Assembly (NCBI GenBank): GCA_016185725.1
Contig: JACPNA010000001.1
Span: 1 to 37,752, forward strand
Direction of reading: 5' to 3'
DNA from: Candidatus Woesearchaeota archaeon
Lineage (GTDB): Archaea > Nanobdellota > Nanobdellia > Woesearchaeales > GW2011-AR9
Length of the DNA stretch: 37,752 bases
How positions within the stretch are numbered: position 1 is the first letter of the stretch; every line of letters begins with the position of its first letter. Position numbers and translations under genes: made by a program. Positions 6,308 through 19,914 of this stretch are shown in pieces. The notes below the pieces were generated by a model that saw nothing but the letters and a program-made list of their open reading frames with translations, made no database searches and was not told the origin of the DNA.

Positions 6308-7015
6308 CTAACCCACATATCCTAACCCCTTATCTTCTTGGATTTCTTCTGCCTGTTTGCTCTTTTCCAAAATACCCTTTAATTTCTCCTCAAATACAAT
6401 CGCCTGTTTCAACAATGGTTTAGGATCTATTTCTAACCCTACATACGCATCTAACGCTCTGATGATTTCTGCCGCCGCCTTGCTATCCGGCAAATTACTC
6501 TTCGCTTCTGCAAATAAAGCCACTATTGGAACCAATGTCTGCTTCGCCATCAATGCTCCGGTAACCCCTACAATAATACCTTCCATTAACGGATTAGCTA
6601 TCCCCTTCAATTTTTTCTCAATTGAACTATTACCCGAAGAAAAATAAAATATTCTTGATTGATCAGGATTAGGTGAACCAACACCTTCTAAAGAAATAAT
6701 TTCTTTCGCTTGCAATTCCTTGGCCAAATCTAATATTACATCAGCTAGCTTCCACCCTAAATTTTTTCCAATATTAATCGCATGCACTAACACTAAATTA
6801 TACTGCTTATTATAATGCAAAGAAATTGGCTCGATAACCTTGCTTTGATGTATCGCTACCATTGCTGGAATCTCATCAATCTCAATAATCCCGATTTTTT
6901 CTGTCTCTAAATGATCCATCAAGAACTCCGTCGCAATTGTACTAATTAATCCAAACCCTGGAAAACCTTCTATAATCGTAACATTTTTTGGCTTTTTAGA
7001 TAAAATTAATTTCAT
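6308..7015 (-). CDS. PAC2-family proteasome assembly chaperone
   Basis: 235 aa. The N-terminal strand-loop VTIIEGFPGFGLISTIATEFL is the family signature (G-F-P-G-G/F-G), and the internal EGVGSPNP and GALMAKQTL segments fit archaeal PAC2/PbaA-like proteins. These assist assembly of the 20S proteasome alpha ring. A helical tail (about 205-230) ends LGYVG, reminiscent of but not identical to the C-terminal hydrophobic-Tyr-X tail that docks into the proteasome. The start at 7015 is set by AGGTGAT 5 nt upstream; an ATG three codons further up lacks a site. It is a single-gene unit on the minus strand. Confidence 0.85.
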   Translation of the reverse strand: MKLILSKKPKNVTIIEGFPGFGLISTIATEFLMDHLETEKIGIIEIDEIPAMVAIHQSKVIEPISLHYNKQYNLVLVHAINIGKNLGWKLADVILDLAKELQAKEIISLEGVGSPNPDQSRIFYFSSGNSSIEKKLKGIANPLMEGIIVGVTGALMAKQTLVPIVALFAEAKSNLPDSKAAAEIIRALDAYVGLEIDPKPLLKQAIVFEEKLKGILEKSKQAEEIQEDKGLGYVG

Positions 7016-7076
7016 AAGTATCACCTTTTTTAGATTAATAGTATTGCTAAATCAATATCATTTTTAAGTCTTTCTA

Positions 7077-7790
7077 TTATGTTCCCACACATAAAATAGT
7101 ATTAATCAAACCATCCTTCATACAACTTTCCCCAATAAAAAATAAATACAACTTTTCATAAACATCTAATTTTGTATCATCATTAGGAATAATTAAAACG
7201 GGTAAAATTCCTATCGTCCTTAATACCTCATTTAACTTTTCCCTCCGACTTTGTTCACGTAAAGACACAACTTTAACCTCTTGCTCAAAAACACTATTAA
7301 AAATCAATTTCACCCGATAATATGCTTTAGGTGTAACTAAAACTAAAATATTAGTCTCATCTTCTTTGAACAATCGCTTAGAAAAAACCGCATTCTCTAA
7401 CGTATGATGGCTTTTATTTTCTCGTAACAAAAACTCCTCTGAATTAAACCCTAACCTTTCCATCTCCGGAACTAATCGTTGATACATCAAATCCGCCTCC
7501 ACTTCCCCCTCTCCTCGTACAACATATCCTCCGCCGTACCCGCTCAAAATAATTCTCGGCTTATGCTGTTGTCCTTCAAACAATTTCACTGCATAATCTA
7601 ACCTTTCCGGCACATTTCCTAATAAAGTTTTATTTGACGTACCCTCGCCGGTTATAATAATCAAATCATAACTCTCTCCTTCTATATCCGCAGGTAAAGT
7701 AGTATGAGTATAATATCCTATAAAAACCGCTAAAAAAATAATTGCAGCCACTACACCAAAAATAATTTTTCTTATCTTATTAAAAATCAT
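7077..7790 (-). CDS. DUF218 (YdcF/SanA/ElyC-like) membrane-anchored protein
   Basis: 237 aa. An N-terminal membrane helix (about 6-28) is followed by an extracytoplasmic alpha/beta domain with the DUF218 pattern: YDLIIITGEG, a PRIILSGYGGGY strand-loop, LLRENKSHHTLENAVFS (E..S..T.EN), and LVLVTPKAYYRV. Bacterial members (SanA, ElyC) act in envelope integrity and peptidoglycan/lipid-carrier metabolism; the archaeal role is unknown. The start at 7790 was chosen because a TATA box (7811-7824) lies about 27 nt upstream; a GTG at 7835 would lie upstream of it. The next genes upstream on this strand are an EF-hand protein and an L,D-transpeptidase, so an envelope role is a reasonable inference. Confidence 0.75.
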   Translation of the reverse strand: MIFNKIRKIIFGVVAAIIFLAVFIGYYTHTTLPADIEGESYDLIIITGEGTSNKTLLGNVPERLDYAVKLFEGQQHKPRIILSGYGGGYVVRGEGEVEADLMYQRLVPEMERLGFNSEEFLLRENKSHHTLENAVFSKRLFKEDETNILVLVTPKAYYRVKLIFNSVFEQEVKVVSLREQSRREKLNEVLRTIGILPVLIIPNDDTKLDVYEKLYLFFIGESCMKDGLINTILCVGT

Positions 7791-7810
7791 AAATCCAGAA
7801 AAACCTCTCT

Positions 7811-7824
7811 TTTTAAATAAATAT
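7811..7824 (-). promoter_or_regulatory. TATA box of the DUF218 gene
   Basis: Minus-strand ATATTTATTTAAAA, centred about 27 nt before the ATG at 7790. It decides that start and indicates a leaderless mRNA. Confidence 0.55.
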
Positions 7825-7915
7825 CCCTCCCGCACATTACCGCTTTTTTTTTAAACAACTTATTTATCTCTGCAAATGACCAAACATTTACCTAAAAATT
7901 CTCTTCTAGAAGAAT

Positions 7916-8362
7916 TCATTTTTTATACACCTCCTGTTTCTTGACCTTTGCTTGATTAATAAGTTTCATATCTTGCAATTCTTCATCTGAGATGTTCCCA
8001 TCCCCATTAAAATCAATTATTGGAGCTATCGCCGCTAATAAATGAGAATAATCGGAATCAAATAATACTCTTTTATTATCCTCATAACGCTCATCAACAT
8101 TTTTTGGTCTTAATTTTAACTGTTCTGAAAAAAATATAATAGCTCTTTCATCTTCATCAACGATATACTCCAATCCCGAAACCAAAAATAACGTATTAGT
8201 CTTATTCTCTAAAAATTTCTGATCATATTCAACTGTAATAGGCTGAACAGCATCGCTTACACTATATTCAAGTTTTATTGGTCTTTCATCCTTATTACAG
8301 CCATAGCTTTGAGTTAAACCTAATGTCAAAAACAATCCTAATACCTTCTTTTTTAATATCAT
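7916..8362 (-). CDS. Secreted EF-hand protein, possible lipoprotein
   Basis: 148 aa. A signal peptide (KKKVLGLFLTLGLTQSYG) is followed by Cys22, so the mature protein may be lipid-anchored, although the lipobox (SYGC) is not a textbook one. Near the C-terminus a complete calcium loop D117-F-N-G-D-G-N-I-S-D-E-E128 matches the EF-hand/dockerin consensus. The middle (35-110) is unrecognised. It probably sits outside the membrane and binds Ca2+. The gene lost its native upstream promoter sequence: an IS1-family element has inserted at its TATA box, leaving TATAAAGT (8385-8392) 27 nt before the ATG but replacing everything upstream. Confidence 0.7.
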   Translation of the reverse strand: MILKKKVLGLFLTLGLTQSYGCNKDERPIKLEYSVSDAVQPITVEYDQKFLENKTNTLFLVSGLEYIVDEDERAIIFFSEQLKLRPKNVDERYEDNKRVLFDSDYSHLLAAIAPIIDFNGDGNISDEELQDMKLINQAKVKKQEVYKK

Positions 8363-8384
8363 TTTTTTTATCTAAAAGCGTTGT

Positions 8385-8392
8385 ACTTTATA
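8385..8392. repeat. Left 8-bp target-site duplication of the IS1 element
   Basis: ACTTTATA, identical to 9178-9185 on the other side of the element. On the minus strand it reads TATAAAGT and is the TATA box of the EF-hand gene (27 nt before its ATG at 8362). Confidence 0.9.
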
Positions 8393-8420
8393 GGCCGTGT
8401 ACCATAGCGACTGATAGAAA

Positions 8421-8447
8421 GATTAATATTCTTGAAGAATATTAATC
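8421..8447 (+). promoter_or_regulatory. 27-bp perfect palindrome before the insA start codon
   Basis: Two 13-bp perfect arms (8421-8433 and 8435-8447) surround a single G, ending 4 nt before the ATG at 8452. In RNA it would form a tight hairpin over the ribosome entry region; as DNA it could be the binding site of InsA, which represses IS1 in bacteria. Both readings are inference. Confidence 0.6.
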
Positions 8448-8451
8448 ATCC

Positions 8452-8715
8452 ATGGTAACTAAACTTCTCTGTAAAAACTGTGGCAGCAATAACATTGTTT
8501 TGAACGGTAAACGTTCAAATGGTCGACAAAAATATCACTGTAAGAATTGTCGATGTTATCGAACATTCGGGCCAGAATACTATTATTCGACGGAACGAAA
8601 AGAAGAAATTCTCAGAACATATAAAGAACGTGCAAGTCTTCGTGGAGTCAGAAGAATCTTTGGTGTTTCAATAACTACTGTTCTGACTTGGTTAAAAAAA
8701 AAGTCTCAAGCCTGA
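8452..8715 (+). CDS. insA: IS1 InsA-like zinc-finger/HTH protein
   Basis: 87 aa. The N-terminal zinc ribbon LLCKNCGSNNIVLNGKRSNG ... KYHCKNCRCYRTFG (C-x2-C...C-x2-C) is followed by a helix-turn-helix, LRGVRRIFGVSITTVLTWLKKK (about 62-84). In bacterial IS1, InsA alone binds the terminal repeats and represses transposition, while a -1 frameshift product with InsB' is the transposase. The frame ends at TGA 8713-8715 just after a run of nine A (8694-8702), where slippage gives the fusion. Start at the ATG 4 nt after a long palindrome. Confidence 0.88.
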   Translation: MVTKLLCKNCGSNNIVLNGKRSNGRQKYHCKNCRCYRTFGPEYYYSTERKEEILRTYKERASLRGVRRIFGVSITTVLTWLKKKSQA

Positions 8716-9170
8716 GACCTTTTTCTGAATCATTATTTCCTGCGCTGACAGGAGACATTGTAGAATATGATGAATTATGGTCTTTTGTGCACAGTAAAGC
8801 ACAAAGAATATGGGTCTGGATAGCCCTTTGTCGTCGAACACAACAAGTTGTAGCTTATCATCTAGGAAATAGAGATAAAAAGTCATTTCATCAATTCTAC
8901 AACAAAGTTCCTATCGATTATGCAAATTGTTTGAGCACCAGCGATGGGTTGGAGGTCTATAAAGTCTTAAAGATTTATGGACATAGTATGGGCAAAAAGA
9001 AAGAGGGTAGAACATCTCAGGTAGAGGCATTTAATACCGTTTTAAGACAAAGACTAGCGCGTCTAATTAGGAGAACTTGTGCATTCTCCAAATCATTGGA
9101 AATGCACGAAACAGTAATTAGGGTATTTATTCAAGAATATAATGAAGAAATATTATCAGTCGGTTTGTAA
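8688..9170 (+). CDS. insB: IS1 InsB'-like DDE catalytic frame, expressed by -1 frameshift
   Basis: This frame lies -1 relative to insA and has no good start of its own; it is expected as the C-terminal part of an InsAB' fusion (8452-9170). The catalytic core is intact: first Asp in VEYDELWSFV, second in TSDGLEVYKVL, and Glu in SQVEAFNTVLRQRL. The family signatures RIWVWIALCRRTQQVVAY and FSKSLEMHETVIRVFI are clear. The stop codon (9168-9170) lies inside the right terminal inverted repeat, as is usual for compact IS elements. Nothing indicates decay. Confidence 0.88.
   Translation: MVKKKVSSLRPFSESLFPALTGDIVEYDELWSFVHSKAQRIWVWIALCRRTQQVVAYHLGNRDKKSFHQFYNKVPIDYANCLSTSDGLEVYKVLKIYGHSMGKKKEGRTSQVEAFNTVLRQRLARLIRRTCAFSKSLEMHETVIRVFIQEYNEEILSVGL
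8694..8702 (+). other. A9 slippery run for programmed -1 frameshifting
   Basis: Nine consecutive A after TT. In the insA frame it reads TTA-AAA-AAA-AAG; one base back it reads on as AAA-AAA-GTC into insB'. The position matches the A-rich frameshift site of bacterial IS1. Confidence 0.75.
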
Positions 9171-9177
9171 CACTGCC

Positions 9178-9185
9178 ACTTTATA
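9178..9185. repeat. Right 8-bp target-site duplication of the IS1 element
   Basis: ACTTTATA, identical to 8385-8392. The sequence beyond it (minus-strand CGAAAAGTT) is the displaced upstream part, including the likely BRE, of the EF-hand gene's original promoter. Confidence 0.9.
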
Positions 9186-9237
9186 AACTTTTCGATTGTT
9201 TTATCACTTATTAGTTACAACAATAATCCGCTTCAAA

Positions 9238-10065
9238 CTACGGCATAACAACCACTCTTGTTTTATAAGTTCCCTCCCCGGTACATCCCATCTCAACAAA
9301 AGCAGCAAGCTCATCGATATCTCTATCCTCCAACCCAACACATCCCCAAGTCCAATCACCGTCCTTAACCCCTCCTCCGCCATGAATCTCAATATCACCG
9401 CCCAACTCCGTATCTTGCGGAGGCGTTTTGCATTGATTTAGCGCCATTTCAATAGCTTCATATTTTCGTTTATTAATTAATCCTGACGCTAAACCTCGTT
9501 CTGCGCTTTCCAGACTGGGATAACTTAACAAAAAAGCGTTATGATAACCCGTAAATTTTTTTTTTTTAGCTATGTAAAACTCTCCCACTGGCGTTTTTCT
9601 ATCCCCTTCTCGTTCCTTATCCCCCTCTGGTTCTTCGCCAAGAGAAACACCATATTCTTTAAGAAGATTAGTATTAAGATAAACACCTAAAATACGCCGT
9701 GATTTTTCAATAAGAATTCTTTTTTGAATTTTTTCGGAAGAATTCTTTTTCATATATTCCTCTGTCAGAGTAGACAATTGCAACCCTTCATGGTAATATC
9801 TATCCTGTTTATTGTCCTCACTCTCATTTGGAATAAAATCTTCAATACAAAAAGGTTCATCTGCTTGCATAGTATACATCTGTTGAGTTATTTTTGTTAA
9901 ATTAGAACCTGCATATTGTGAATTTTTATCGCCATCACTGCCAGCATAAGAAGTATCCTTTGAACAAGAACATTCGTCAATTGATAAAATCCCTTCCACA
10001 GAACTGTAACAGCGTGTATTTATAACAACCGTCATAGTAAGTAGAGCCAATAACTTTGTAGACAT
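9238..10065 (-). CDS. Secreted L,D-transpeptidase (YkuD family)
   Basis: 275 aa. A signal peptide (about 1-18) precedes Cys19; the surrounding NTRC is not a standard lipobox. Residues 30-115 are low-complexity and Cys-containing with two YAGS repeats. The YkuD domain covers about 125-275: a GDRKTPVGEFYI segment (the usual 'GdraTPeGrF'), catalytic H228 in IEIHGGGG, and C242 in DWTWGCVGLEDRDIDEL. In bacteria these cysteine enzymes cross-link peptidoglycan peptides or attach lipoproteins. Archaea lack murein, so the substrate is unknown. Transcription starts from TTTATAAA (10089-10096), 27 nt before the ATG. Upstream of the EF-hand protein and DUF218 genes on the same strand, separated now by the IS1 element. 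Confidence 0.88.
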   Translation of the reverse strand: MSTKLLALLTMTVVINTRCYSSVEGILSIDECSCSKDTSYAGSDGDKNSQYAGSNLTKITQQMYTMQADEPFCIEDFIPNESEDNKQDRYYHEGLQLSTLTEEYMKKNSSEKIQKRILIEKSRRILGVYLNTNLLKEYGVSLGEEPEGDKEREGDRKTPVGEFYIAKKKKFTGYHNAFLLSYPSLESAERGLASGLINKRKYEAIEMALNQCKTPPQDTELGGDIEIHGGGGVKDGDWTWGCVGLEDRDIDELAAFVEMGCTGEGTYKTRVVVMP

Positions 10066-10088
10066 CTACCCCCCTTAAATCAACATAA

Positions 10089-10096
10089 TTTATAAA
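10089..10096 (-). promoter_or_regulatory. TATA box of the secreted L,D-transpeptidase gene
   Basis: TTTATAAA centred 27 nt upstream of the ATG at 10065. A GGGGG run lies 2-7 nt before the ATG. Confidence 0.6.
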
Positions 10097-10128
10097 CTTT
10101 CCTATTTTTTATTACTTATAAATAGTTA

Positions 10129-10791
10129 CTACTTCACTTCAACCATATATTCAAAATAATCATCCCACGGATTTTCTAACTTCATCATCTCCTGCACCGA
10201 TAACTTCTCAAAATACCGTCTAAATGGCCGCATGGAATTGCCATGTGCAGATATGACCGCATTCATCTTCTCTTTCCTCATCAATTGAAGTAAATCCTTA
10301 ATAAAACTCTTAACCCGTTTCTCCACCATCATAATACTCTCTCCCTCAGGCGGAATAGTAGTATAACTTCTCCGGATTGTATGCAAATCTTGTTGGCATA
10401 AATTTGTAGCTTTTTGCTGTTCTCGTCTAGATAAATGATCTACATTATGCCAATGCCATATTACATCACAATGCTCCTTTTCTTTTAATTTCAGATAACT
10501 ATTATGCGACATCCCTTGTAAAGTTCCATATGACCGCTCAATAATTCTATCATCAGTTAATACTTTACGGCATTCCGGATGAAATTTCAACACCTCCCGT
10601 AACGTCTCTTTTGAACGAGACAAATGACTCTGATACGCAATATCAATCTTCTTACCTTTCAATAACAAAGCAATTTTCTTTGCCTGTTTTCGACCAAGAG
10701 GTGTTAATTTAGAATCCTTCCACCCCGTAAACCGATGCGCCCGATTATAATACGTCTGTGCATGTCGAAACAGATAAATTTTAAGCTTCAT
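10129..10791 (-). CDS. Histidine phosphatase, phosphoglycerate-mutase-like
   Basis: 220 aa. The N-terminal RHAQTYYNRAHRFTGWKDSKLT (H10 as the phospho-accepting His) is that of the cofactor-dependent phosphoglycerate mutase branch. Other signatures are ERSYGTLQGMSH, PPEGESIMMVEKRV and SAHGNSMRPF with the second catalytic His. It would interconvert 3- and 2-phosphoglycerate in glycolysis/gluconeogenesis, or act as a general phosphatase; a middle segment (HWHNVDHLSRREQQ) differs from the canonical enzyme, so specificity is open. The start at 10791 is set by GAGGTTAG 3-8 nt upstream. Single gene on the minus strand. Confidence 0.8.
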   Translation of the reverse strand: MKLKIYLFRHAQTYYNRAHRFTGWKDSKLTPLGRKQAKKIALLLKGKKIDIAYQSHLSRSKETLREVLKFHPECRKVLTDDRIIERSYGTLQGMSHNSYLKLKEKEHCDVIWHWHNVDHLSRREQQKATNLCQQDLHTIRRSYTTIPPEGESIMMVEKRVKSFIKDLLQLMRKEKMNAVISAHGNSMRPFRRYFEKLSVQEMMKLENPWDDYFEYMVEVK

Positions 10792-10962
10792 TCTAACCTC
10801 TTTGAGTAAAAATCCCCCCACAATAGAGTTGCGGAGCATTCGATAACAATGAATAGAGATATCTTTACTCTTGAAAATTGGTCGCAGTAGAACTGCAGCA
10901 TATTAGACCTATTTTCATTGAATAAACAGAATCAAACTAACCAAGAATATAAATATTTCTTT

Positions 10963-11547
10963 TCACTTAACTAAAGGATAGATATAATCCATAAAACAAA
11001 TCGCTGCTAACGCCGTACCATATCTTTTTTTTGGAATAAAACTCTTTGTAACCATCTTGGATTTAAAATCATATCGTTGAGACAACGGATCAACTTCTAA
11101 CAACTCTTGAATCATGCATTCTAACATTCCTTTAGCATCTTTGACAGAATCTTTCCCCATATACTCGCAGACATATCCATCCCGTTTTTCCCCCCTCCTC
11201 CTATCACAAAACCAGCCGTAAATAAGTCCTGCCGTCGCTCGTTCACCCTTTTCCACATCCATCCTTGCCATAATCGTTTCCATGACTGAACCATGAACAT
11301 AATAGTTTGGTTTTAGAACTTGTTCTGCTTCTTGAGGTAAAACCGAAGAATAAGTAATAATATTATGCCGTTCAATACCTGCATCCTTCAATGCCCGATG
11401 AAAAGAACCCGTATGATGCGAAATATCGCTTTCTCCACATCCCTTAACAACATAAAAATGTCTCGGAATTTTACATCCCAACACCAGCGAGTGTTCATTA
11501 TTTTTTCCCCACTGATAAACATTGATTTTTTTTTGTTGCCTCATCAT
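10963..11547 (-). CDS. pdaD: Pyruvoyl-dependent arginine decarboxylase
   Basis: 194 aa. The family is recognised from YVVKGCGESDISHHTGSFH followed by ALKDAGIERHNIITYSSVLP. Self-cleavage between S67 and S68 would create the beta chain and the pyruvoyl-bearing alpha chain. The C-terminal KKRYGTALAAICFMDY also fits. The enzyme converts arginine to agmatine, which archaea use for agmatidine in tRNA-Ile(CAU) and for polyamines. The usual 'SSxLPP' reads SSVLPQ. The start is one of two tandem ATGs (11547/11544) after AGGTG; a GTG at 11550 is the longest option. Single gene unit. Confidence 0.88.
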   Translation of the reverse strand: MMRQQKKINVYQWGKNNEHSLVLGCKIPRHFYVVKGCGESDISHHTGSFHRALKDAGIERHNIITYSSVLPQEAEQVLKPNYYVHGSVMETIMARMDVEKGERATAGLIYGWFCDRRRGEKRDGYVCEYMGKDSVKDAKGMLECMIQELLEVDPLSQRYDFKSKMVTKSFIPKKRYGTALAAICFMDYIYPLVK

Positions 11548-11641
11548 CACCTAAAAATAAGTGCCTATTTATTAAATTTCCTTTTCCAAGAAAATCACCT
11601 TTGTTAAAAATACCCGCCATCCATCAATTATAACAAAAAGA

Positions 11642-11651
11642 TTTATATATT
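11642..11651 (+). promoter_or_regulatory. TATA box of the anchored L,D-transpeptidase gene
   Basis: TTTATATATT, centred 25 nt before the ATG at 11671. Predicts a leaderless transcript and fixes the start. Confidence 0.6.
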
Positions 11652-11670
11652 TTAAATATAAGATAAGACT

Positions 11671-13746
11671 ATGTTTTTAGGGTTAAAATTGGTGGTGGCA
11701 AATAGTAAATTTGCAGATTTGCTTAATCCCGAACACATTCTTAAGACAAATGAAAAATTATCGCTTCTCATTGAAGGATTTGAATACGACTACCAAAATT
11801 ATGCTCGAAAAAAAGAACAAGCCCAGCAGGATCTGCGTTCTTTAATAACCATTATTAAACGAACAGAAAATTTCTCCCTCTCCCCGGAATTGATCGGCAA
11901 TTCCAAAAAATACGAACAAATTCAATTAAAGCAAATCAATGACCTCATCAAAATAATTCGTTTTCTTGGCCAGCTTCTTGAAACTGAAGATATTGATCTG
12001 TTTTATGACGTCCGTACCCCTTTATCCATCTTTGAAGAATTTATCCATCAACTAAAAGACGCCGTGGGAAATTTTGCCATCAACAAAGATAAAGCAAGAA
12101 TAATTCGTAAAATTATCACTGATATTGATACACAATATCTCACCCTTCTCGAACAAGTAAAAACATACCTAGAAAACGAATTTCGCTTCCTTGCCCAAAC
12201 CGGGTATAACACCAATTTCGCCTTGGGAGAAAACATTGCCTTTGAACTCTATCTTAGAAACAGAGTAAAATTAAAACGTCAGATAAATGGTAAAGTGCAA
12301 TATATAAAAAAACAACTAGAACTCCTCGTCAAGGAAATCAAACCCTTAAAAGATAAAAAAGAATGGAGTGAAGAATATACCGATAACCTTATTATAAACA
12401 CAAAGTATTTTTATACACAATTTTCTGGCTTAATTGATTTCTCACTGCAAAGAATTGAAATATCAAAACAAATAATCATGGAAGGAATTAACCTTCAAAA
12501 AAAATATCTTCAACAGCTGGAAGAAACACAAACCAATGTTAAAAAATTCTACCAAGAAATAATCAATACCCTCACTGCAGTACAAGAAGAAAAAAAAACT
12601 CCTGGAAAAATAATCCCTGCTAAACTTGCCTATTGGTCTGCTCAATCTAAAAAATTTGCTGGAGTTATTCTTAAAACAGAAACAGAAATCCAGCAATATC
12701 TTCACCAAGCGCAAAAGCAAACTCAACGGTCTTTGCATCGAGAATCACGCAATTCCAAAACTGTATTACGCCGCTTTGATAAGTTAAGAAAATCCGTGGG
12801 AAAGACCCTTGCCATCCTTACTGCTTCCTCAATATTTACTCTTGCCTCCCCTCTCCCCATTTCTGACGAAGTATTCGCCCGAACATCTTCCCTGCCTACA
12901 CCTACTTTAAAAAAAGAAGGAATTACAGTAAAACAAACCACTCCTGTTCCCTTTGTTAATATCATCACTGAAAAACTAGGTAATCTAAACTGGGAATTAC
13001 CTTCCTTTACTTTTCCCGAATACCAAAAATTATTGCAAGAAGAAAAGAAAAATATACTTCCCTTTGAAAAAGACATTACTGAGGAAGGCATCACTTTACA
13101 TTTTTATCCTAGTAAACAACTTCTGCTTGTCCAAACAAAAAATACCGGAGAAACTATCACTTCTTACCATGTTCGTGGCGGTCCGAAAAAAAGAATGCCG
13201 GATAAGGACAACCCCGGACATTTTTTTGGACCAACTCCCTCTGGCAAATTTAAAATTTTTAAAAAAGACATTCGTCCCTACGTCAATCGTAATAGCGCCT
13301 GGGATGACGCTAAGATTGCCTTCGGAGCGCTCATTCGCGAAGTAAAGGGAGAGATTCAAGTAAGTGAAAACAACGGCAAAACCTGGTTCTTCGTAACCGG
13401 TAAAAACGCAAAATTTGGCGATTTAGATAAAGAAGACTTTTACGAAAATGGGAGATTAATGGATCGCTGGTGGGATAATCCTTTTGGACATCTCACCATA
13501 GAATTAAGAAATAAATTAGGAATAAAAATTGCCGAAAAAATTCATCCCAATATCGCCTTAGAACGTGGTGCACGTGGATTAGACTATGGTACAGAATATA
13601 TGATCCTCACGAATATTTCCCACGGTTGCATGCACATTCACCCCGCTAATATCGATGAACTTGCCCGTATCATCAATATGTCCCCTGATAAATTTACCGC
13701 GATAATAATACACCCATATACTGTTACCTCTCTACCCTTAACGTAA
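11671..13746 (+). CDS. Membrane-anchored L,D-transpeptidase with long helical N-terminus
   Basis: 691 aa. Residues 1-370 are almost entirely alpha-helical and highly charged (KK/EE-rich coiled-coil pattern) with no recognised domain. A single hydrophobic helix at about 376-394 is followed by a Pro/Thr-rich linker. The YkuD domain spans about 470-690, with HFFGPTPSGKFKIFKK, GHLTIELR and the classical motif ISHGCMHIHPANIDEL; C653 is the predicted nucleophile and H651 precedes it. The topology would put the coiled coil in the cytoplasm and the catalytic domain outside. Bacterial relatives cross-link cell-wall peptides; the archaeal substrate is unknown. This is the second YkuD protein within 4.5 kb, but the two catalytic domains are dissimilar, so not a recent duplication. 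Confidence 0.88.
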   Translation: MFLGLKLVVANSKFADLLNPEHILKTNEKLSLLIEGFEYDYQNYARKKEQAQQDLRSLITIIKRTENFSLSPELIGNSKKYEQIQLKQINDLIKIIRFLGQLLETEDIDLFYDVRTPLSIFEEFIHQLKDAVGNFAINKDKARIIRKIITDIDTQYLTLLEQVKTYLENEFRFLAQTGYNTNFALGENIAFELYLRNRVKLKRQINGKVQYIKKQLELLVKEIKPLKDKKEWSEEYTDNLIINTKYFYTQFSGLIDFSLQRIEISKQIIMEGINLQKKYLQQLEETQTNVKKFYQEIINTLTAVQEEKKTPGKIIPAKLAYWSAQSKKFAGVILKTETEIQQYLHQAQKQTQRSLHRESRNSKTVLRRFDKLRKSVGKTLAILTASSIFTLASPLPISDEVFARTSSLPTPTLKKEGITVKQTTPVPFVNIITEKLGNLNWELPSFTFPEYQKLLQEEKKNILPFEKDITEEGITLHFYPSKQLLLVQTKNTGETITSYHVRGGPKKRMPDKDNPGHFFGPTPSGKFKIFKKDIRPYVNRNSAWDDAKIAFGALIREVKGEIQVSENNGKTWFFVTGKNAKFGDLDKEDFYENGRLMDRWWDNPFGHLTIELRNKLGIKIAEKIHPNIALERGARGLDYGTEYMILTNISHGCMHIHPANIDELARIINMSPDKFTAIIIHPYTVTSLPLT

Positions 13747-13832: not shown

Positions 13833-14102
13833 ATGGAACTTAAAATTCTGGAAGAAACTAAAACAAAATTAATCTTTGAATTAAAAGGCGAAACCCATAC
13901 TTTCTGTAATGCTCTAAAAGAAGAACTTTTGCAAATAAAAGGTATTACCCTCGCAACCTATAGAGTCAATCACCCTCTAATTGGCATACCCGAATTCCAC
14001 ATTGAAACCAAAGGTATCGAACCCAGAAAAGCTGTTAAAGAAGCATTAGCTAACTTAAAAAAGAAAGTTAAAGAATTCCAAAAAGAAGTTGCCTCCTTAT
14101 AA
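13833..14102 (+). CDS. rpoL: DNA-directed RNA polymerase subunit L (Rpb11 homologue)
   Basis: 89 aa, the normal size for archaeal RpoL. The sequence KLIFELKGETHTFCNALKEEL ... VNHPLIGIPEFHIETKG ... PRKAVKEALANLKK matches the alpha-NTD-like fold of Rpb11, with the 'D/E-T-HT..N.L' and 'HPL' signatures. RpoL forms the assembly platform of archaeal RNA polymerase together with RpoD, which is encoded at 17733-18515. It has its own promoter and stands outside the main ribosomal operon, just upstream of the primase gene. Confidence 0.9.
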   Translation: MELKILEETKTKLIFELKGETHTFCNALKEELLQIKGITLATYRVNHPLIGIPEFHIETKGIEPRKAVKEALANLKKKVKEFQKEVASL

Positions 14103-16073: not shown

Positions 16074-16622
16074 ATGGCACAACCACAAAATCCTGATTTC
16101 AAGCACATCGTACGTATCGCTAACGTTGACTTGCCCGGTAATAAATCCATTGGTTTTTCATTGACAAACATCAAAGGTATCGGTACCAATCTTGCCCATG
16201 TTTTCTGCACACTTGCAAAAATTAACTTAGACAAAAAAACCGGAGATTTGACACAAGAAGAAATTGAACGTCTAAATCTTATTGTTATTGAACCCCTTAA
16301 AAATGGCGTTCCTCAATGGATATCTAACCGTCGTAAAGACTACGATTCTGGCGAGGATAAGCATCTTTTAACAGGTAATCTAAACTTCGTTGTTGAAAAC
16401 GATCTTAAGCGTCATAAGAAAATTAAATCTTATCGTGGTGTTCGCCACTTGAAAGGCCTGCCTGTCCGTGGTCAGAGAACAAAAGCTAACTTCAGAAGAA
16501 ATAAAGGAAAAGTAGTTGGCGTAGCTAAGAAAAAAGAAACCCCTGGTAAAGAATCAGCCGGTGGCAAAGCTGATAAAGCCAGCAGTAAACCTGATAAGTC
16601 TGCGGCTAAAGGTAAAAAATAG
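16074..16622 (+). CDS. rps13: Ribosomal protein uS13
   Basis: 182 aa. The archaeal S13 core is complete: FKHIVRIANVDLPGNKSIGF, the NIKGIGTNLAHVF helix-hairpin, and the rRNA-binding KSYRGVRHLKGLPVRGQRTKANFRRNKG. A roughly 30-residue tail of Lys/Ala/Gly/Ser repeats follows, longer than the usual archaeal end. S13 sits in the 30S head and contacts the P-site tRNA and bridges to 50S. First gene of the archaeal S13-S4-S11-RpoD-L18e-L13-S9-RpoN operon, 10 nt from rps4. Confidence 0.96.
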   Translation: MAQPQNPDFKHIVRIANVDLPGNKSIGFSLTNIKGIGTNLAHVFCTLAKINLDKKTGDLTQEEIERLNLIVIEPLKNGVPQWISNRRKDYDSGEDKHLLTGNLNFVVENDLKRHKKIKSYRGVRHLKGLPVRGQRTKANFRRNKGKVVGVAKKKETPGKESAGGKADKASSKPDKSAAKGKK

Positions 16623-16632
16623 ATGAATTGAC

Positions 16633-17250
16633 ATGGGAGATCCAAAAAAGTTAAAGAAAAAGTACTTATCACCGAGCCACCCTTGGAATAAAGTTGCTAT
16701 TGAAGCTGAAGCTATCCTTAAAAAAGAATACGGTTTAGTCAACAAAAAAGAGATTTTCTTGGCTAACACTTTCTTAAAAAAATATAAAGATCTTGCCAAA
16801 AAATTAATTGCTACAAAAACTGTGCAAGCTGAACACGAAAAAAAATTAGTCTTGGTCAAATTACAAAAATATGGTTTATTGCCTGCTGGAGCATCTTTGG
16901 ATCAAATTCTTAGTCTGGAAACTAAAGACATCTTAGAACGACGTTTGCAAACTATAACTAACAAAAAAGGTCTGGCTCGTTCTGTAAAACAAGCCCGGCA
17001 ATTTATCACTCATAGACATATCATAGTAGGTGATAAAGAGATAACTTCGCCTGCATACATGCTTTCTTTAGAAGAAGAAAGTAAACTCTCCTTTAAGCCA
17101 GAATCATCCTTATCGAATCTAGATCATCCTGAACGTATGAATCTAGCTAAAGAAATAAAAGAAGAAGCTGAAGAAGTCAAGCCAAAAAAAGAATCTAAGA
17201 AAAAGAAAGAAGAAAAAGAGATTACAGTTGAGGAAAATACTAAATCATGA
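16633..17250 (+). CDS. rps4: Ribosomal protein uS4
   Basis: 205 aa. Starts [20 protein letters not shown] as archaeal S4 does. The S4 RNA-binding domain is at about 105-165 ([44 protein letters not shown]). The last ~40 residues are an acidic/basic KE-rich extension. S4 is a primary 16S rRNA binder that nucleates assembly of the 30S body. The stop codon overlaps the rps11 start by 4 nt (ATGA), so translation is coupled. Confidence 0.96.
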
Positions 17251-17690
17251 AAAAACCAGAATATACCGAAGAAAGACGTGAATCTGCTCCCGATTACAAT
17301 CAAAGAATACGCTGGGGCATTGCTCACATTTACTCCTCATACAATAATACTATTATCACTATTACTGATATCACCGGAACTGAAACCATTGCCCGTTCCT
17401 CTGGCGGACAAATAGTTAAATCTGACCGCTTAGAAAGTTCGCCTACCGCCGCCATGGGTGCAGCTAAAAAAGTAGCTGAGATTTGTAAAGAAAAAGGCAT
17501 CAATGGCTTATACATTCGTGTACGGGCTCAAGGCGGTCATAATGGGTCAAAATCACCTGGTCCTGGAGCTCAGGCTGCTATTCGAACCTTATCCCGAGTC
17601 GGTATGCGTATTGGCAAAATCGAAGAAGTTACCCCTGAACCGCACAACGGTTGTCGCATGAAGGGCGGAAGAAGAGGAAGGAGAGTATAA
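17247..17690 (+). CDS. rps11: Ribosomal protein uS11
   Basis: 147 aa. Contains [57 protein letters not shown] and the terminal [19 protein letters not shown], all diagnostic of archaeal/eukaryotic uS11. The protein lines the 30S platform near the mRNA exit. The N-terminal ~25 residues form a short lineage-specific extension. Overlaps rps4 by 4 nt. Confidence 0.96.
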
Positions 17691-17732
17691 ATAATATCCT
17701 AATTATCCTAATAAACAATACTAACAAATAAA

Positions 17733-18515
17733 ATGGCCATAAAAATTGAAAAATTAAAAGAAGAAAAAAAACGCGGCATTCTTAAATTTATGCTGAAAGG
17801 CAGTAATGAAGTCTTCGCCAATAGTATTAGACGTTTAATTATTGAAGAAGTACCAACGCTTGCCATTGAAGACATAGAAATCAAAGAGAATAGTTCTGCA
17901 TTATTTGATGAAATGCTTGCTCTTCGTATTGGTTTAATTCCCATAAAAACTGATTTAAAAAGTTATACCAGTAAAGAAAAATGTAAATGTGAAGGGGTCG
18001 GATGTGCGCAATGCGAACTTAAAATCACTCTTAAAACAAATAAAAAAGGATATGTCTATGCTAGTGAAGCAGAAAGCGCCGACCCTAAATGCACCTTTGT
18101 TTACGAAAAAATGCCCATTGTCAAATTATTGCCAAAACAAAAATTAGATTTAACTATGACTGCAGTCTTAAACAACGGTCGCGAACATACTAAATGGACA
18201 CCTGGCTGGGCTTTTTACAAAAAAGAACCCGTTATCACCATCAATAAAGTTAAAAATCCTGAACTGATTGCTCAAAAATCTACTGATAACGTCTTTACAT
18301 TAAAAAACAAAAAATTAGAATTAAATGAAGATAGAATATACGACAGCAACCTGCTGGAATATTATGCTGAGCTTGACGGAGGAATCTCCTTAGAATATAC
18401 TGATAATATCCTCTTCACCTTAGAAAGTTGGGGTCAACTTAGTTGCAAAGAAATCTTGCACAAGAGTTCCGAAATATTCCTTGAGAAAATTGAAGAAATG
18501 GAGAAATTAATATAG
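17733..18515 (+). CDS. rpoD: DNA-directed RNA polymerase subunit D (Rpb3 homologue)
   Basis: 260 aa. The alpha-like dimerisation domain (FMLKGSNEVFANSIRRLIIEEVPTLAIEDI; LRIGLIPIKTD) pairs with RpoL. Residues ~85-100 carry a four-cysteine cluster, CKCEGVGCAQC, at the site of the Fe-S/zinc subdomain present in many archaeal RpoD proteins. REHTKWTPGWAFYKKEP is the conserved archaeal RpoD segment. It initiates RNA polymerase assembly. 42 nt after rps11 and 11 nt before rpl18e. Not the bacterial sigma factor of the same name. Confidence 0.95.
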   Translation: MAIKIEKLKEEKKRGILKFMLKGSNEVFANSIRRLIIEEVPTLAIEDIEIKENSSALFDEMLALRIGLIPIKTDLKSYTSKEKCKCEGVGCAQCELKITLKTNKKGYVYASEAESADPKCTFVYEKMPIVKLLPKQKLDLTMTAVLNNGREHTKWTPGWAFYKKEPVITINKVKNPELIAQKSTDNVFTLKNKKLELNEDRIYDSNLLEYYAELDGGISLEYTDNILFTLESWGQLSCKEILHKSSEIFLEKIEEMEKLI

Positions 18516-18526
18516 GTAAATGTTAC

Positions 18527-18886
18527 ATGGTTAAACGCACCGGTCCAACAAACTATCAACTGCAGCAGCTTATCCTAGAATTAGAACCAAAAGCTCTTAT
18601 CAGTAGATTCTGGAAACGCGTCTTAGAAGACCTAAAAAAACCATCACGCCAGCGTAGAATTGTTAATTTGTACAAAATCGAACAATTTGCTCAAGATGGC
18701 GAAACTATTCTTGTTCCTGGCAAAGTTTTAAGCGTTGGCAGCATCAACAAAAAAGTGAATGTTGCTGCTTTAAAATTTTCCGATGATGCTAAACGTAAAA
18801 TTACTGATTTAAAAGGAAAAACCTTAACCATTAACGAACTGCTTCATGAAAACCCCGAAGGTAAAAAAGTGAGGATTTTAGGATGA
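18527..18886 (+). CDS. rpl18e: Ribosomal protein eL18
   Basis: 119 aa. KRTGPTNYQLQQLILELEPKA, FWKRVLEDLKKPSRQRRIVNLYKIEQFA and GETILVPGKVLSVGSINKKVNVAALKFSDDAKRKI are characteristic of archaeal L18e, a relative of bacterial L15. It lies on the 50S solvent side. The ATG overlaps nothing upstream; the downstream rpl13 overlaps by 4 nt. Confidence 0.95.
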   Translation: MVKRTGPTNYQLQQLILELEPKALISRFWKRVLEDLKKPSRQRRIVNLYKIEQFAQDGETILVPGKVLSVGSINKKVNVAALKFSDDAKRKITDLKGKTLTINELLHENPEGKKVRILG

Positions 18887-19314
18887 AAATATACGATGGA
18901 AATGGTGTAATGCTTGGACGGATTGCTTCTCACGTTGCCAAAGATCTTTTGCTTGGCGAAGAAATCCACATCATTAATTGTGAAAAAATAGTTATCAGCG
19001 GTAACAAAACCTTCACCTTCGCTTTAGAAAAACAGAAACGAGACCGTCGAGGATATCCCTTAAAATCTCAAAAATATTCACGTTTGCCAGATAAATTTGT
19101 TCGCCGATCAGTTCGTGGTATGCTTCCTTGGAAATTTAACCGCGGAAAAAAAGCATTTGAAAACTTAAAATGTCATATTGGCATACCTAACGGATTAATC
19201 AGCCAAAAAACAATTCACCTGCAAAATGATACTTATAAAAAATTACCTACCTTGTATTACACCACTGTAGGCGAAACTTGTAAACACTTAGGCGGTAAAA
19301 TAATAATACCATGA
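18883..19314 (+). CDS. rpl13: Ribosomal protein uL13
   Basis: 143 aa. YDGNGVMLGRIASHVAKDLLLGEEIHIINCEKIVISGN and FVRRSVRGMLPWKFNRGKKAFENLKCHIGIP are typical uL13. The C-terminus is slightly variable (GETCKHLGGKIIIP). Binds 23S rRNA early in assembly. Overlaps both neighbours by 4 nt, implying tight translational coupling across L18e-L13-S9. Confidence 0.95.
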   Translation: MKIYDGNGVMLGRIASHVAKDLLLGEEIHIINCEKIVISGNKTFTFALEKQKRDRRGYPLKSQKYSRLPDKFVRRSVRGMLPWKFNRGKKAFENLKCHIGIPNGLISQKTIHLQNDTYKKLPTLYYTTVGETCKHLGGKIIIP

Positions 19315-19706
19315 AAAATACAATTCATACTGATGGAAAAAGAAAACAAGCGGTAGCTCGCGCTACTTTACGTACAGGTACAGGTAAGGTTCTTATTAAC
19401 GGTAAATTATTACACAGTCTTACGGATCACCTGACTAAACTGCGTATCCTTGAACCTTTAGTCTTATGCGGCGAACTTGCCACCAAAGTAAACATTGACG
19501 TTAATGTCCATGGTGGCGGTGTCAATGGTCAAGCTGATGCCTCTCGTTTAGCTATCGCTCGTGCTCTTGTTCAATACGATGGCAAATTAAAAAAAATATT
19601 TAACGATTACGATCGCTTGCTCTTAGTAGCCGACGTTAGAAAGAATGAAGTATCCAAACCTAACGATTCTAAACCCAGAGCTAAAAGACAAAAATCATAC
19701 AGATGA
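19311..19706 (+). CDS. rps9: Ribosomal protein uS9
   Basis: 131 aa. TDGKRKQAVARATLRTGTGKVLINGK, VNIDVNVHGGGVNGQADASRLAIARALVQY and the C-terminal KPRAKRQKSYR are diagnostic; the final Arg reaches the P-site tRNA. Overlaps rpl13 by 4 nt; rpoN begins 10 nt downstream. Confidence 0.96.
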   Translation: MKNTIHTDGKRKQAVARATLRTGTGKVLINGKLLHSLTDHLTKLRILEPLVLCGELATKVNIDVNVHGGGVNGQADASRLAIARALVQYDGKLKKIFNDYDRLLLVADVRKNEVSKPNDSKPRAKRQKSYR

Positions 19707-19716
19707 GGCAACAAAA

Positions 19717-19914
19717 ATGATTATACCAATCCGCTGTTTTTCCTGTGGCAAACCGCTAGGGCATTTATGGGAAGAATTTGCCGAACGTACTCAAAAAGGC
19801 GAAGCGCCTAAAAAAATAATGGATTCATTATATATCGAACGCTTCTGCTGCCGCAGTTTATTTATTGGTAATGTCGAGCTTATTGATATGGCTGGCGAGT
19901 TCAAAAGAAGCTAG
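19717..19914 (+). CDS. rpoN: DNA-directed RNA polymerase subunit N (Rpb10 homologue)
   Basis: 65 aa from the ATG at 19717. MIIPIRCFSCGKPLGHLWEEF with the later FCCRSLF gives the invariant zinc site CFSCG...CC of Rpb10. Ends at FKRS, the normal length. The TGAGG of the preceding stop region serves as ribosome-binding site; a longer frame starting at 19645 overlaps rps9 and is not used. Binds the RpoD/RpoL platform. Last gene of the operon; the usual next gene rpoK is not in this window. Confidence 0.95.
   Translation: MIIPIRCFSCGKPLGHLWEEFAERTQKGEAPKKIMDSLYIERFCCRSLFIGNVELIDMAGEFKRS

Follow-up and report, generated by a model that had tools for sequence, protein, structure and literature searches.

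Two dissimilar YkuD-fold proteins in a variable chromosomal stretch of a woesearchaeal archaeon, and a pilin, giant protein and YkuD cassette in its relatives

Results and Discussion

The DNA analysed here, hereafter the window, is a 37,752-nucleotide stretch of a Candidatus Woesearchaeota archaeon (contig JACPNA010000001.1, assembly GCA_016185725.1), and it encodes two dissimilar YkuD proteins, YkuD-1 and YkuD-2, within 4.5 kb of each other. An earlier inspection of the letters alone, the sequence-only reading, had reported their catalytic residues to be intact (H228/C242 in YkuD-1, and SHGC with C653 in YkuD-2), and we found these residues as stated. With moderate confidence we interpret both proteins as exported cysteine enzymes whose substrate would be the stem peptides in the peptidoglycan of bacteria, either partners or prey, and not as builders of a wall of the archaeon's own. 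Export, substrate, hydrolysis in place of transpeptidation, and the bacterial target are inferences. They are built on the domains and catalytic residues of the two proteins, on the lack of genes for Mur ligases and of MraY type, on a gene cassette that recurs around YkuD-1 relatives together with its co-occurrence pattern, and on the modular architecture of YkuD-2. Relatives are designated below by genome (G) and locus or contig (L) numbers, and the coordinates of the window's features are collected in Table 1.

The archaeon's own wall

Genome content was assessed by family searches (the window's genome is 97% complete, with a size of 1.03 Mb), and these identified YkuD-1 and YkuD-2 as the only two YkuD domains genome-wide. 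The same genome gave no match to Mur_ligase_M or to Glycos_transf_4 (MraY-type), for each of which the search was positive in 12 of 14 control genomes; since both are missing from a genome of this completeness, a murein or pseudomurein wall of the archaeon's own is unlikely. Among the 288 genomes of the order, YkuD occurred in 51 (none in G271, of the same genus as the window's genome), Mur ligases in 112 and both in 9, against 19.8 expected (P = 0.0005; P values for order-wide associations are optimistic, as related genomes are not independent samples). Among the possible targets, the sequence-only reading had listed a self-made cross-linked wall and that of a bacterial partner; the missing Mur ligase and MraY-type matches, and the tendency of YkuD to occur where Mur ligases are absent, speak against the former, and the evidence now favours the latter as the probable target.

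It is conceivable that the lineage makes an unrecognised peptide-cross-linked polymer with non-homologous ligases, matured by the YkuD enzymes, and the presence in one genome of two YkuD enzymes and a DUF218 protein, along with an EF-hand lipoprotein whose gene probably once shared a transcript with YkuD-1 (see below), would suit such a polymer. We nevertheless regard it as very improbable, given the missing matches and the anti-correlation just described, the patchy distribution of YkuD, and the lack of association between YkuD and DUF218.

YkuD-1 resembles hydrolases that recognise diaminopimelate

YkuD-1 scored well above the curated cut-off of PF03734 (YkuD), which is 23.4 bits, and its H228 and C242 (HGGGG...DWTWGC) are invariant across an alignment of 11 archaeal sequences (alignment A1). 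When its profile was compared with solved structures the matches were to 8ikr (DpaA, 54 bits), 7o21 (Bd1075, 42 bits), Pgp2 (38 bits), Csd6 (31 bits) and B. subtilis YkuD (19 bits); DpaA, Bd1075, Pgp2 and Csd6 are hydrolases (PMC10653827). In DpaA, Lys83 (Lys107 in Csd6) contacts meso-diaminopimelate (mDAP) and is specific to DpaA and the LD-carboxypeptidases (PMC10653827). K150 of YkuD-1, also invariant in the 11 archaeal sequences, aligns with this lysine (residue 65 of the 8ikr chain corresponds to Lys83, given that chain residue 125 is Cys143). From these similarities we infer that YkuD-1 belongs to the hydrolytic DpaA/Csd6/Pgp2/Bd1075 branch, and the label of L,D-transpeptidase that the sequence-only reading had given it is not supported, its nearest solved relatives being these hydrolases. 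YkuD-1 would then be a secreted or lipoprotein-type hydrolase that recognises mDAP and cuts the bond after it, either as an L,D-carboxypeptidase or as a protein-releasing amidase.

A scan of the homologue collection, run with a second alignment (A2) as alignment A1 was too diverse for this, identified named homologues with up to 50% identity to YkuD-1 that were mostly bacterial (from Acidobacteriota, Myxococcota, relatives of Desulfobacteria, Armatimonadota and Planctomycetota), with a few from Woesearchaeota or Nanoarchaeota. YkuD-1 had no match in phages, which argues against a recent phage origin. In a quick tree, seven YkuD-1 sequences of the family and two myxobacterial rows fell into one group with modest support (83), a result consistent with a bacterial acquisition older than the diversification of the family, or with repeated exchange. 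As the seven family members group together and the named homologues are mostly bacterial, an old acquisition from bacteria appears preferable to contamination.

Several YkuD paralogues of the order have lost the catalytic cysteine, with NGG or a similar motif in place of HGC (L088 of G176, L098 of G210, L106 of G247, L073 of G070, L094 of G201 and L099 of G212); in some loci they adjoin intact copies, and they may be pseudo-enzymes or immunity-like partners.

A cassette of pilin, large secreted protein and YkuD in relatives

In relatives of the window's archaeon, a YkuD-1-type gene lies tail-to-tail with the gene of a large secreted protein, itself located behind a pilin-like gene with a class-III signal (KGQ[VI]T). 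We found this cassette in G118, G222, G244, G263, G278 and G282 of the same family and in G104, G257 and G203 of other families, with the two convergent genes separated by anything from a 41-bp overlap to about 95 bp. Full-length members of the main partner family occur in exactly 8 of the 288 genomes of the order, and a YkuD-1-type gene is adjacent in all 8; class-III-signal proteins are likewise enriched near YkuD genes of the YkuD-1 type (12 in 198 kb, compared with 5 in 621 kb around other YkuD genes, P = 7e-5). A named Woesearchaeota contig (L121) has the same plan, but with an unrelated large protein that scores above the Pfam cut-off for peptidase C25. As an out-of-sample check, a phylum-level search identified three further YkuD-1 relatives (G353, G304 and G306); in G353 the pilin, partner and YkuD genes are on one contig but 7 kb apart, and in G304 the YkuD-1 relative is without the cassette. 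The cassette association is thus strong within the order but not universal. In the relatives, YkuD-1 would work with the pilin-like protein and the giant secreted protein, probably as a surface-exposed contact device.

In G288, G292 and G254 the same site of the chromosome holds a pilin and large-protein pair that faces a different secreted protein with NlpC/P60-like motifs. These slot proteins had no Pfam or PDB match, and profile tests did not confirm NlpC/P60; a G171 homologue of the G254 protein scored 18.4 bits against NLPC_P60 (PF00877), below the cut-off of 23, and this G254-G171 pair was the only homology among the slot proteins tested (E-value 5e-17). We treat a possible exchange of YkuD and NlpC in this slot as a lead.

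A structure model of the main partner (predicted local distance difference test, pLDDT, of 59) had best matches that included several caspase-fold proteases, with E-values of 0.09 or worse. No homology of the main partner family to the L121 C25 protein or to a G039 protein described below was found, and for those giant partner proteins that were scanned, Pfam reported no SLT domain. Giant secreted proteins of about 1000-2900 residues are recurrent (L059 1-7958, L078 1-8180, L055 8774-12532, L057 3-5819 and L209 16743-19901); several stand directly behind a class-III pilin-like gene, and some are homologous to each other, with others having a different C-terminus.

The coupling of YkuD-1 to pilin-like and large secreted proteins in relatives, and in G282 also to a large surface-protein cluster, raises a further explanation. 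Sortase-assembled pili generally combine a pilin and a large surface protein with a cysteine transpeptidase dedicated to them. The YkuD proteins might similarly serve as cysteine transpeptidases for the trimming, cross-linking or anchoring of pilin-like and giant proteins on the archaeon's own surface, and the lack of peptidoglycan genes of its own is in keeping with this. This is the main rival explanation, and we consider it rather unlikely: no acceptor motif was identified, the window's YkuD-1 is without a partner, and YkuD-1 retains the lysine with which the hydrolytic branch contacts mDAP, a residue that one would not expect to be preserved if the substrate were a protein. Because this lysine is conserved, a peptidoglycan substrate appears favoured over a sortase-like role.

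YkuD-2 is a modular protein

As a whole protein, YkuD-2 (11671-13746, plus strand, 691 residues) fell slightly short of the YkuD cut-off with 22.8 bits; its C-terminal 261 residues, searched alone, reached 25.9 bits (E-value 1.7e-5). C653 in SHGC is the only cysteine of the protein, and the likely catalytic histidine is H625 in KIHPN. The N-terminal helical domain matches a G306 protein with 34% identity over 326 residues (E-value 2e-51) and is found in few genomes (G171, G030, G241 and G039 in the order; G306 and G460 in the class). Complete relatives have this helical domain followed by a stretch rich in lysine and arginine, a hydrophobic segment, and an end domain that differs between them. 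Both the window's protein and that of G460 end in YkuD, with IHGT...SHGCIR as a textbook YkuD motif in the latter (the G460 reading frame has one in-frame stop); by eye only, G306 has an NlpC-like motif set and G039 a His...Cys caspase-like one, and the end domain of G030 is unassigned. A single-sequence structure model of the YkuD-2 domain reached a pLDDT of 36, and the domain had no match in plasmids, which argues against a recent plasmid origin. From this layout we would expect the enzyme to be exported and the cytosolic part to act as an anchor or in a sensor-like way: the YkuD domain, of the classical SHGC kind, would be held outside the cell, tethered through the membrane segment to the cytosolic helical domain. 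In G306, a distant genome, the gene of the YkuD-2 relative directly adjoins a YkuD-1-like gene in tail-to-tail orientation, which independently echoes the proximity of YkuD-1 and YkuD-2 in the window.

The YD[IV]RxPL motif of the helical domain (in the window and in L194, L214 and L222) resembles a histidine-kinase H-box with the histidine mostly replaced by tyrosine; one G171 sequence scored 14.9 bits against HisKA, below the cut-off, over HDTRAPL.

Weighing the explanations

The enzymes could also trim bacterial peptidoglycan for nutrition or for harmless attachment to a bacterial host: DPANN archaea are presumed to rely on partners, the YkuD-1 relatives Csd6, Pgp2 and Bd1075 are trimming rather than lytic enzymes, and the lipoprotein-like N-termini of most YkuD-1 relatives would hold the enzyme at the surface. 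The sequence data do not separate scavenging from antagonism, but YkuD-2 relatives swap their end domains and the distribution is patchy, features that resemble conflict more than a housekeeping role, and we rate the scavenging explanation as improbable. Tentatively, and with distinctly less confidence than in the preferred explanation itself, we speculate that these genes form, in Woesearchaeota and related DPANN archaea, an exchangeable surface weapon that has escaped description. It would consist of a class-III pilin-like carrier, a giant secreted protein with variable ends (caspase- or C25-like in several) and a tail-to-tail hydrolase of wall peptides (YkuD or, in other genomes, NlpC/P60-like), joined by the second, modular YkuD-2-type family (helical cytosolic domain, membrane segment, and exported YkuD or other enzyme), and together these would let an archaeon without peptidoglycan attack or hold bacteria.

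Several points weigh against the preferred explanation and its extension to the cassette. The window's YkuD-1 is an orphan: it has neither a pilin nor a large secreted protein gene beside it, and the partner family is absent from the genome, so that the function of the partner is not simply transferable to it. Its signal sequence is weak (NTRC, not a proper lipobox), the hydrophobic segment of YkuD-2 is marginal (mean hydropathy 1.54), and Pfam detected no peptidoglycan-binding (wall-binding) domain in either protein. As for the partners, the structure matches suggest a caspase-like nature of the main family weakly, only the unrelated L121 partner passes a Pfam cut-off (C25), and the idea that NlpC/P60-like enzymes replace YkuD draws on motif resemblance and on scores that are marginal.

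Most DPANN archaea have yet to be cultured, and it is not known which partners they have. If the preferred explanation holds, mDAP-directed exported enzymes in genomes without the means to make peptidoglycan would point to bacteria, and not only archaea, as partners or prey, with activity on mDAP muropeptides as an assayable prediction; the cassette would in addition provide a marker for genome searches and a way to approach the means by which such cells might make contact with their partners.

Genomic setting

The RpoL and archaeal primase genes and the S13-RpoN operon keep their synteny across the family, so that the window is archaeal throughout, in agreement with the sequence-only reading; the guanine-cytosine content at 7-14 kb (34-36%) equals that of the rest of the window, with no break. 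We reject a chimera or contamination with bacterial DNA, of which there is no sign, on the grounds of this synteny, the uniform composition and the grouping of the seven family YkuD-1 sequences. The interval 7077-13746 corresponds exactly to the window's variable stretch, bounded by PAC2 and RpoL as anchors. The order of PAC2, RpoL, primase and S13 operon recurs in relatives, where one to three further genes separate PAC2 from RpoL (G254, G267 and G293), and since the gene content between these anchors differs among genomes the interval is a variable chromosomal spot and not a conserved envelope operon.

The "envelope set" that the sequence-only reading saw here therefore dissolves: its DUF218 protein is clear, but DUF218 is independent of YkuD (together in 11 of the 288 genomes against 9.2 expected), and a mutase-like gene, an arginine decarboxylase gene and an IS1 insertion interrupt the block. 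Its secreted EF-hand protein is plausible as to secretion (lipobox-like N-terminus) and weak as to the EF-hand (a single one, below the cut-off). A lack of neighbouring conservation, which the sequence-only reading had named as a refutation, applies to the DUF218 and EF-hand genes, but the relatives strongly conserve another neighbourhood around YkuD-1. In G244, G263 and G282 its orthologue lies downstream of the S13-RpoN operon, and in G282 it follows directly, on the same strand, the orthologues of the window's surface-protein cluster.

The IS1 element is flanked by an intact 8-bp target duplication, ACTTTATA (8385-8392 and 9178-9185), and is a fresh insertion. Once it is discounted, gap arithmetic places the EF-hand gene only 82 bp downstream of YkuD-1, and because of this short gap the two were probably once a co-transcribed two-gene unit, since split by IS1. 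Loss of the YkuD-1 partner through IS1 was considered and rejected, as a simple insertion with an intact 8-bp duplication does not by itself account for it. The element had no match among plasmids, and its two transposase frames overlap and join at an A run, as in the frameshift type.

Table 1. Features of the window and the evidence for their assignment
Feature	Position	Strand	Evidence
PAC2-family protein, left anchor of the variable stretch	6308..7024	-	Pfam PAC2 117 bits; near RpoL in G254, G267, G293
DUF218 (SanA/ElyC-like) protein, one N-terminal transmembrane segment (residues 24-42)	7077..7835	-	Pfam 49.4 bits
Lipoprotein-like protein, one weak EF-hand	7916..8362	-	EF-hand_5 18.9 bits, under Pfam cut-off 25.9; lipobox-like N-terminus
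IS1-family insertion	8385..9185 including duplication; IS 8393-9177	+	DDE_Tnp_IS1 77.6 bits; imperfect terminal inverted repeats
YkuD-1, predicted exported YkuD-fold enzyme, 275 residues	9238..10065	-	Pfam YkuD 60.7 bits, residues 115-262
Histidine phosphatase / phosphoglycerate mutase-like, outside the system	10129..10839	-	His_Phos_1 114 bits
Pyruvoyl-dependent arginine decarboxylase, outside the system	10963..11550	-	PvlArgDC 108 bits
YkuD-2 N-terminal helical domain (residues 1-378), motif YDxRxPL...EEF, predicted cytosolic	11671..12804	+	
YkuD-2 most hydrophobic segment (residues 379-397), after K/R-rich stretch; possible membrane/signal-like segment	12805..12861	+	
YkuD-2 C-terminal YkuD domain (SHGC, C653; H625), predicted outside	13144..13680	+	Pfam 25.9 bits, trimmed
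RpoL, right anchor of the variable stretch	13833..14102	+	RNA_pol_L_2 75 bits; RpoL-primase-S13 synteny in family
S13-S4-S11-RpoD-L18e-L13-S9-RpoN operon	16074..19914	+	Upstream of YkuD-1 orthologues in G244, G263, G282
Surface-protein cluster: multi-transmembrane protein and secreted or class-III-signal proteins of 832, 1084 and 793 residues	20621..32502	-	

The surface cluster, three large surface proteins with a multi-transmembrane protein near the S13-RpoN operon, is conserved in several genomes of the family (L061 3-9535, L056 14924-17561 and L207 12250-19901), and Pfam gave no match to any protein of this type of cluster. At the PAC2-RpoL spot, the window's histidine-phosphatase-type mutase has as its counterpart in G293 what appears by eye to be an unrelated cofactor-independent mutase (L205 15570-17051), and beside RpoL the window's arginine decarboxylase compares with apparent agmatine-to-putrescine genes in G271 (L199 17472-19613). 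A HEPN and nucleotidyltransferase (MNT) gene pair at 1255-2465 is a likely toxin-antitoxin module, and genes related to it occur near other loci (L104 and L056).

Comparison with known systems

Peptidoglycan hydrolases of archaea that kill bacteria have already been published (PMC12352652) and offer a precedent for the preferred explanation; these are likewise bacterial-type wall enzymes in archaea without murein, patchy and prominent in Nanoarchaeota. That survey required a wall-binding domain in addition to a catalytic one, a definition from which YkuD-1 and YkuD-2 differ, and its main text makes no mention of transpeptidases or PF03734. Giant proteins resembling murein transglycosylases (fam00969) have been described in Woesearchaeota and Pacearchaeota and proposed to act on bacterial walls (PMC8204110, PMC9723730); they too are large extracellular proteins of these lineages, with a chemistry different from that of YkuD. 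Searches of the non-subscription literature yielded no account of archaeal YkuD enzymes or of the pilin, giant protein and YkuD cassette, and both this cassette and the modular YkuD-2 family appear to be undescribed.

DpaA (YafK/LdtF), Csd6, Pgp2 and Bd1075, the nearest solved sequences, share with YkuD-1 the YkuD fold, the catalytic cysteine and histidine and the mDAP-contacting lysine, whereas YkuD-1 comes from an archaeon without detectable peptidoglycan synthesis, has DWTWGC around its catalytic cysteine where DpaA has SIGC, and is paired, in relatives, with a pilin-like protein and a giant secreted one. YkuD-2, for its part, has the SHGC signature and the YkuD profile match in common with classical L,D-transpeptidases (of the B. 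subtilis YkuD and LdtMt2 type), but its domain is fused behind a helical domain of ~378 residues and a hydrophobic segment, an arrangement to which its relatives attach other end domains.

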